Positions 23,036-24,095 of a DNA stretch of 24,619 bases are shown one piece after another. A program made the translations under genes and the position numbers. The stretch covers positions 1 through 24,619 of the IMG/VR virus record IMGVR_UViG_3300017740_000079. One strand, 5' to 3'. The stretch comes from a virus. Position 1 is the stretch's first letter; each line of letters begins with the position of its first letter. Under the pieces are notes generated by a model. It was given only the letters and a program-made list of their open reading frames with translations, searched no databases and had not been told where the DNA came from.

Positions 23036-23251
23036 TTAGTTTATTGTAGAAAAAAATTGAACTTGTATTTTTCCATTGTGTAAACTTGAGCAAGTGTTTT
23101 TATCTTGATAAAGTAATTTTAAAAAACCACTTGTTGCATCTGTTAAATAGATTTTTTCATTGATAAAATCAACTTCAATCGTATTATTGTTTATTCCGTA
23201 TCCTTTTACTAATAATTGGATTTTCTCTAGTGTTTCGTTAAAGTTTAACAT
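23036..23251 (-). CDS. Small early protein, unknown
   Basis: This 71-residue protein has an N-terminal helix (FNETLEKIQLLVKGYG, 4-19), then alternating beta-like segments (NTIEVDFINEKIYLTDA and KIQVQFFST). A small alpha/beta fold is likely. No family was recognised. The leader consists of four tandem TTTTG/CAAAA units (plus strand 23252-23271), and a consensus TATATTTG box lies about 80 bp upstream. It is followed by a G/C hairpin and the 65-residue gene. Gene confidence rests on the clean ATG, spacing and leader composition. Confidence 0.5.
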   Translation of the reverse strand: MLNFNETLEKIQLLVKGYGINNNTIEVDFINEKIYLTDATSGFLKLLYQDKNTCSSLHNGKIQVQFFSTIN

Positions 23252-23329
23252 TTTGTTTTGTTTTGTTTTGGTTGTTATTTAGAACCATTCTAAATAAGGT
23301 GCTTGATTGATTTCTCTCTCATTGCTTGG

Positions 23330-23337
23330 CAAATATA
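23330..23337 (-). promoter_or_regulatory. TAnnTTTG -7 box upstream of the 71-residue gene
   Basis: TATATTTG on the minus strand matches the Bacteroidota -7 consensus. A TTTG lies upstream at 23352-23355, but the spacer of 14 bases is shorter than the usual 19-21. Promoter for the small-gene run to the left is likely. Confidence 0.4.
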
Positions 23338-23522
23338 TAAAAAAATTAATACAAATTTAAAAAACTTTAACTCCTTACACATTCTTTTTTAATATCCTAA
23401 CAAAAAATGATTTTTTTTTTAAAAATTTAACTTTCCAATATAAGTACACGCAAATAACAAATTTTTTTAATGTCACAAGAAAAAAAGCAAAAAGTTATTA
23501 ACAAGTTATCAACAATGCGATA

Positions 23523-23541
23523 GGGTGGGGGAGGGGGGGGG
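23523..23541 (+). other. G-rich tract with G-quadruplex potential
   Basis: Three G runs of three, five and nine residues, separated by a single T and a single A, lie in AT-rich DNA. They can supply four tracts of at least three G and so could form a G-quadruplex on the plus strand. CACCCC at 23546-23551 can alternatively pair with the first G run. Confidence 0.55.
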
Positions 23542-23578
23542 ATCGCACCCCATAAGGTAAGAATCTAAAATACCTATG

Positions 23579-23622
23579 GCAGTTTCAGGGCAGTTTCAGG
23601 GCAGTTTCAGGGCAGTTTCAGG
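23579..23622. repeat. Four tandem 11-bp repeats (iteron-like)
   Basis: The unit GCAGTTTCAGG occurs four times without mismatch, with two further bases of a fifth unit. Eleven base pairs is about one helical turn, so each unit presents the same face to a binding protein. The two DnaA-box-like sites 65 bp to the left are also spaced by 11 bp. Confidence 0.85.
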
Positions 23623-23624
23623 GC

Positions 23625-23654
23625 AAAAAAAAGGAGTAGAAATTAATCTACTCC
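23625..23654 (-). terminator. Intrinsic terminator of the 96-residue gene
   Basis: GGAGTAGA (23633-23640) and TCTACTCC (23647-23654) form a perfect 8-bp stem with a six-base loop, and on the minus strand the stem is followed by eight T. It lies 48 bp after the stop codon of the 96-residue gene and shields the iterons from transcription. Confidence 0.85.
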
Positions 23655-23701
23655 AATTCACAAAACAAATTTTCCAAACAAAATTGAAAAACAAAACAAA
23701 A

Positions 23702-23992
23702 TTAATCTCTTAATAAGAAATATCTTTTTTCATTATATCTTATATAAACTATATCATCTATGTTAAGCTGTAAAAACGACTGATTGCTTATATTAAAGAC
23801 TTCTAACGAATTATATTCGCTCTCATTATAACTTCTATCCAAACCTTGCTTAAATGCCTTTAAACCTGTCTTACAAAGTGCATCAGTTCGTTCTCCAAGT
23901 TCTTTTTCATATTGCAAAAAAAACATTTTATTGTTTAGTTTTAGCTTATGCAATAAGTATTTTAGTTTATTTCTTTTAATTATCTTATTCAT
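23702..23992 (-). CDS. Small basic early protein, unknown
   Basis: This 96-residue protein has a strongly basic N-terminal third (KIIKRNKLKYLLHKLKLNNK, 3-22), a central helical part with GERTDALCKTGLKAFKQGLD and a C-terminal beta-like end (IDDIVYIRYNEKRYFLLRD). The basic start suggests nucleic acid binding. It ends at a strong terminator next to the iterons, so a link with the origin is possible but is only positional. A long G/C-rich leader structure precedes it. No family was recognised. Confidence 0.5.
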   Translation of the reverse strand: MNKIIKRNKLKYLLHKLKLNNKMFFLQYEKELGERTDALCKTGLKAFKQGLDRSYNESEYNSLEVFNISNQSFLQLNIDDIVYIRYNEKRYFLLRD

Positions 23993-24015: not shown

Positions 24016-24095
24016 GGGTAGGAGGATTTTGGTTTTGCTCATTACATTTTCGAGTACAATAAGAACGATTACCCCCTACCCCCCCCTAGTACCCC
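24016..24095 (-). promoter_or_regulatory. Structured, G-rich leader of the 96-residue gene
   Basis: On the minus strand GGGTAGGGGG (from 24072-24081) can pair with CCTCCTACCC (from 24016-24025), ten pairs with a single G-U, enclosing a 46-base loop. The 5' arm is also part of a G-rich stretch (runs of four, eight and five G, 24072-24095) that could form a quadruplex. The two structures exclude each other, which is the layout of a switch, though this is speculation. Confidence 0.4.

Follow-up and report, generated by a model that had tools for sequence, protein, structure and literature searches.

A candidate iteron replication origin in an uncultivated phage and its relatives

Iteron plasmid origins, for example those of F and P1, combine iterons, DnaA-type boxes and AT-rich DNA. 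Among phages, lambda has 4 iterons and the Stx phages have 6 (PMC7466680). In E. coli DnaA, the recognition helix (residues 434-451) reads the TnCACA part of the DnaA box, and Arg399 reads the TTA (PMC5742627).

The window analysed here, that is, the whole stretch of DNA, is a phage record of 24,619 bp in which TerL, TerS and the structural genes all run leftward. Two leftward genes near its right end are separated by a gap of 450 bp. Read leftward, this gap contains in order the terminator with its run of eight T, four copies of GCAGTTTCAGG, the G tract, two boxes of the TTATNAACA type, an AT-rich stretch, the TATATTTG element and a dyad (Table 1); all the elements named by the initial annotation of this DNA were recovered in their places. 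The gap is best read as an iteron-type origin of replication in phages that probably infect Bacteroidota, a reading to which we assign a probability of about 0.65.

Table 1. Features of the gap and of the genes that border it (positions in the window)
Feature	Position	Strand	Remark
First small gene of the left operon leading to TerS and TerL	23036..23251	-	ORF
Operator-like dyad TTATTTAGAACCATTCTAAATAA	23275..23297	.	Half-site TTCTAAATAA common in relatives
Candidate -7 element TATATTTG for a left-operon promoter of Bacteroidota type	23330..23337	-	Motif match
AT-rich stretch, 88% AT, candidate unwinding region	23331..23430	.	Least stable 100 bp of the window
Recurrent sequence TATAAGTACACGCAAATAAC	23439..23458	+	Recurs in relatives
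Box 1, TTATTAACA, one change from the DnaA box TTATNCACA	23495..23503	+	Sequence; also in relatives
Box 2, TTATCAACA, 11 bp from box 1	23506..23514	+	Pair kept in L022, L017 and L027
G tract GGGTGGGGGAGGGGGGGGG	23523..23541	+	Sole + strand G-quadruplex-type motif of the window (motif scan)
Four perfect direct repeats of 11 bp, GCAGTTTCAGG (putative iteron array)	23579..23622	+	Same array in at least 119 IMG/VR stretches
Terminator hairpin GGAGTAGATTAATTTCTACTCC, 8-bp stem, ending the right-hand operon	23633..23654	-	T8 at 23632-23625
96-aa gene upstream of the terminator	23702..23992	-	55% identical to the array-adjoining gene in G011

The four copies of the array are perfect, follow each other in 11-bp steps and lie 65 bp from the boxes, exactly as first annotated; allowing at most one mismatch, GCAGTTTCAGG has 7 matches in the window against 0.25 expected, and none of the shuffles reached 7. 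Scanning IMG/VR with GCAGTTTCAGGGCAGTTTCAGG returned 32 stretches and with GCAGTTTCANNGCAGTTTCA at least 119. In the 134 array contigs (window counted) the units are almost always intergenic, few of them overlapping any open frame, and an array has 2-7 units, mostly at 11-bp steps, an excess that is inflated by the search pattern used to collect the arrays. The conserved neighbouring gene families run against the strand of the array almost without exception, and the flank between the array and the 3' end of the right-hand gene is short (median 59 bp).

The bias of collecting loci by their arrays was avoided by fetching them through a gene instead, either that of a small HTH protein or that of a DnaA domain IV protein; these loci partly overlap with the array-first set, and both come from IMG/VR. 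Every one of the 45 HTH loci that extend 1.5 kb or more downstream has the array, as exact units in 32 and as one-mismatch units in 13, and in none of the 45 is it missing or reversed. It is also found, always in one orientation, in all 19 of the loci with a DnaA domain IV-only protein and at least 5 kb of flank. Conservation in related phages, proposed by the initial annotation as a check, is thus strongly borne out. Among the 13 one-mismatch loci, 12 have arrays of the GCAGTTACTTG type and one has four copies of GCAGTCTCATG; units within one phage are mostly of one variant, some arrays mixing variants. Such switching of a whole array to GCAGTTACTTG or GCAGTCTCATG in some relatives is as expected of arrays of putative binding sites.

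No array was found in bacterial and archaeal genomes totalling 257 Gb, where units paired by chance only; candidate host or prophage arrays in bacterial genomes were rejected as chance two-unit pairs, with three units in one GC-rich locus. Most complete phage genomes have one array; in one sublineage, about 14 loci carry a second. The second array, often of the AACAGTTTCG type, follows a gene of ~93 aa located ~1.6-2.6 kb left of the main array (L007, L020, L060, L061, L063, L080, L092, L099, L109, L122, L123, L134, L138, L148). As a genome-wide polar Chi-like motif GAAACTGC was discarded: although its sense-strand count is 29 against 9.5, it is outscored by 56 other 8-mers. A separate repeat of the window, ACAGTTTCAGCAGTTTCAGCAGTTTCAGCAG at 863-893, consists of 9-bp repeats of one 9-mer and falls within a Cys-rich frame of 59 aa (ETAETAET) close to the lysis genes; G003, G005, L069 and L093 have similar repeats.

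In relatives the array forms the 3' edge of a replication module, whose PHROG matches are to replication initiation families (Rep) and DnaC-like loader families. Where more than 5.5 kb is available to the right, the Rep initiator is encoded in 49/49 loci and the DnaA domain IV family in 44/49, the DnaC-like loader family being present in only 15/49. The window itself has neither the Rep nor the DnaA domain IV gene because the contig stops 1 kb past the array on the right; the initial remark that no initiator gene is in view holds for the window, and relatives carry both genes to the right of the array, among them G011, whose TerL is 96% identical to that of the window.

The phage DnaA domain IV proteins exceed the Pfam cut-off of Bac_DnaA_C, have as best PDB match 1J1V (domain IV of E. 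coli DnaA), and consist of this domain only, lacking the AAA+ domain. One arginine is invariant, position 434 is mostly histidine, D433 is usually replaced by H or N and T435 usually by A, a pattern that fits a predicted reading of the changed box described below. Rep has two unrelated-looking types of N-terminus on a shared C-terminus (e.g. L082, L110), and since both go with the same array, the array-binding protein cannot be assigned from them. The small HTH protein has a match to HTH_3 and weak matches to phage regulators; its AlphaFold model has three helices at middling confidence (pLDDT 71), and its profile gave no convincing match against PDB. Covariation of its recognition helix with the array variant was considered and rejected, the helix being the same in loci with TTTC arrays as in those with TTAC arrays, so the small HTH protein is not identified in this way as the array binder.

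No near relative at the DNA level, and no match to the DnaA domain IV protein, was found among 50,697 phage records, in which the nearest TerL is that of Croceibacter phage P2559Y (45%). This match and the TAnnTTTG promoter element, the -7 box of flavobacteria (PMC9723704), suggest that the hosts are Bacteroidota.

The two 9-mers resembling DnaA boxes stand, as annotated, in 11-bp tandem on the + strand. TTATNAACA is above chance across the whole window (10 against 3.2 expected), and therefore one box by itself is weak evidence; what counts is the tandem arrangement of the pair and its preservation in relatives. Tandems of two or three boxes at 11-12 bp, with varying N position, occur in the window, L022, L017 and L027. 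Among 67 non-redundant relatives, TTATTAACA is found in 11 on the + strand and 12 on the - strand (~1.4 expected per strand), and TTATNAACA has 20 and 17 sites respectively (3.0 and 4.2 expected); TTATNCACA shows no enrichment in the same set. Fewer than half of the relatives have TTATNAACA boxes, and their presence does not follow the subtype of the DnaA domain IV protein, nor did box type give a clear pattern with it. The window boxes are TTATNAACA and do not match TTATNCACA, so that, the strict DnaA-box consensus failing, the gap is not filed as an oriC-type origin. A tentative and rather doubtful extension is that of a private DnaA-box system, where the phage protein made of domain IV alone, with its altered base-contact residues at D433 and T435, would read TTATNAACA and not TTATNCACA and would mark the phage origin apart from host DnaA control. 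The literature searched contained nothing relevant on TTATTAACA with DnaA or on GCAGTTTCA with phage.

The remaining parts of the gap differ in how well they are conserved. The AT-rich tract reported initially has the lowest nearest-neighbour stability of all 100-bp windows in the contig, and its counterpart falls within the four lowest-stability sites of the record in 11 of 15 partly overlapping records; in relatives this stretch also holds a promoter, which accounts for some of its AT richness. The G tract is present as annotated and is not a conserved part, being absent from L017 and L027. Alternating purine-pyrimidine tracts of the CACGCATACACGCACATA type lie left of the array in relatives such as L002, L009 and L016, roughly at the place of the window's G tract, and the C-rich run CCCCCTACCCCCCCCTAGTACCCC at 24072-24095 of the window is a G-quadruplex-type motif on the - strand. 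The terminator annotated beside the repeats is indeed there, on the - strand, and is conserved in L017, L022 and L027; judged by sequence alone, such a terminator is close to what chance would give (0.9 expected, 1 found). In L006, L031, L059, L069, L077, L084, L090, L093, L142 and L144 the terminator stem-loop includes one unit of the array, which would hence be in the RNA.

The main rival, which we judge unlikely as the sole function of the array and which may overlap with the origin, is that the array is a transcription control site, through which a phage regulator such as the small HTH protein would activate or block a leftward late promoter. A leftward TTG-N18..21-TAnnTTTG stands left of the array in 36/67 relatives, against 0.8 expected from mononucleotide shuffles and 4 on the other strand (the window itself has no good -33 element to go with its candidate -7 element TATATTTG); because of this promoter the gap region probably controls late transcription too, and origin and control region may be one. 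The region moreover stands between the replication genes and the terminase operon and contains an operator-like dyad, the HTH_3 match and the weak matches to phage regulators agree with such a role, and phages with two arrays have both in inter-operon gaps. However, the distance from promoter to array, most often 80-130 bp, ranges from about 80 to 400 bp in relatives; neither TTATNAACA boxes nor a partner with DnaA domain IV would be expected at a promoter; most complete genomes have a single array; and the HTH recognition helix is the same whichever of the two array variants is present.

A packaging site (pac or cosB-like) for the small terminase subunit is improbable. Repeats of one direction and uneven spacing do look like terminase-binding sites, the gap is upstream of terS, and one TerS family is encoded in 35/37 loci with enough left flank; but the array lies 1.9-4.8 kb from TerS with variable genes between, not within or next to terS, contig ends (a poor proxy for genome ends) do not cluster at it, and the DnaA-like boxes would be left unexplained. 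Least probable of all is an action in RNA, with TGAAACTGC transcript units as the site of an antitermination or other RNA-binding factor, since, despite the unit within the terminator stem-loop in 10/67 relatives, the start of the window array 2 bp after the T run and the roughly threefold enrichment of GAAACTGC on the gene sense strand (29 against 9.5), most loci have the array downstream of the terminator or no visible terminator, the Rfam search gave no match, and here too the boxes find no explanation. A tRNA search also came out empty.

The origin reading is the best supported of these. Several direct repeats of one unit stand at regular steps, as in iteron origins; easily unwound AT-rich DNA adjoins them, holding in relatives the promoter too; and a phage initiator gene is linked, in relatives only. 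The skew test proposed earlier lends no support: no GC-skew switch occurs at the array in seven relatives, and third-position skew shows none either. Such a test has little power in a genome of ~34 kb whose genes almost all point in the same direction. Against an origin, then, count the missing skew switch, the boxes in fewer than half of the relatives, the promoter inside the AT-rich stretch, the second arrays of one sublineage and the two types of Rep N-terminus that go with one and the same array.

If the gap is an origin, either Rep or the small HTH protein would assemble, as the DNA-binding protein of the phage, on the GCAGTTTCA units along one helix face, and the TTATNAACA boxes would be occupied by host DnaA or by the domain IV protein of the phage. 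Unwinding would then occur in the AT-rich stretch that separates these boxes from the left operon, Rep and the helicase loader would recruit the helicase, and the terminator would shield the array from transcription of the replication operon. Replication of these uncultivated phages appears to be unstudied. The origin reading, if true, would give a signature recognisable from sequence for a large group of them, probably infecting Bacteroidota; it would connect a phage protein that is a free-standing DnaA domain IV with an iteron array, and make phage-evolved DnaA-box specificity a testable question.

Compared with known systems, the locus resembles the lambdoid ori-lambda in its at least four direct repeats beside an AT-rich tract and in its phage initiator and helicase loader (PMC7466680); it differs in the 11-bp step, in the added DnaA-like boxes and in its position in a gap ~2.8 kb from the rep gene, whereas the lambda iterons are inside gene O. 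With bacterial oriC it shares 9-mer boxes near TTATNCACA, an AT-rich unwinding element (PMC5742627) and a homologue of DnaA domain IV; the boxes here are TTATNAACA, one change from the consensus. Unlike bacterial DnaA, the phage protein lacks an AAA+ domain, and it has other residues at the positions matching D433 and T435. The iteron plasmid origins of F and P1 are similar in bringing together iterons, DnaA-type boxes and AT-rich DNA; here, in contrast, the replicon is a phage with structural genes, its initiators match phage families, and the repeat unit has another sequence and length.
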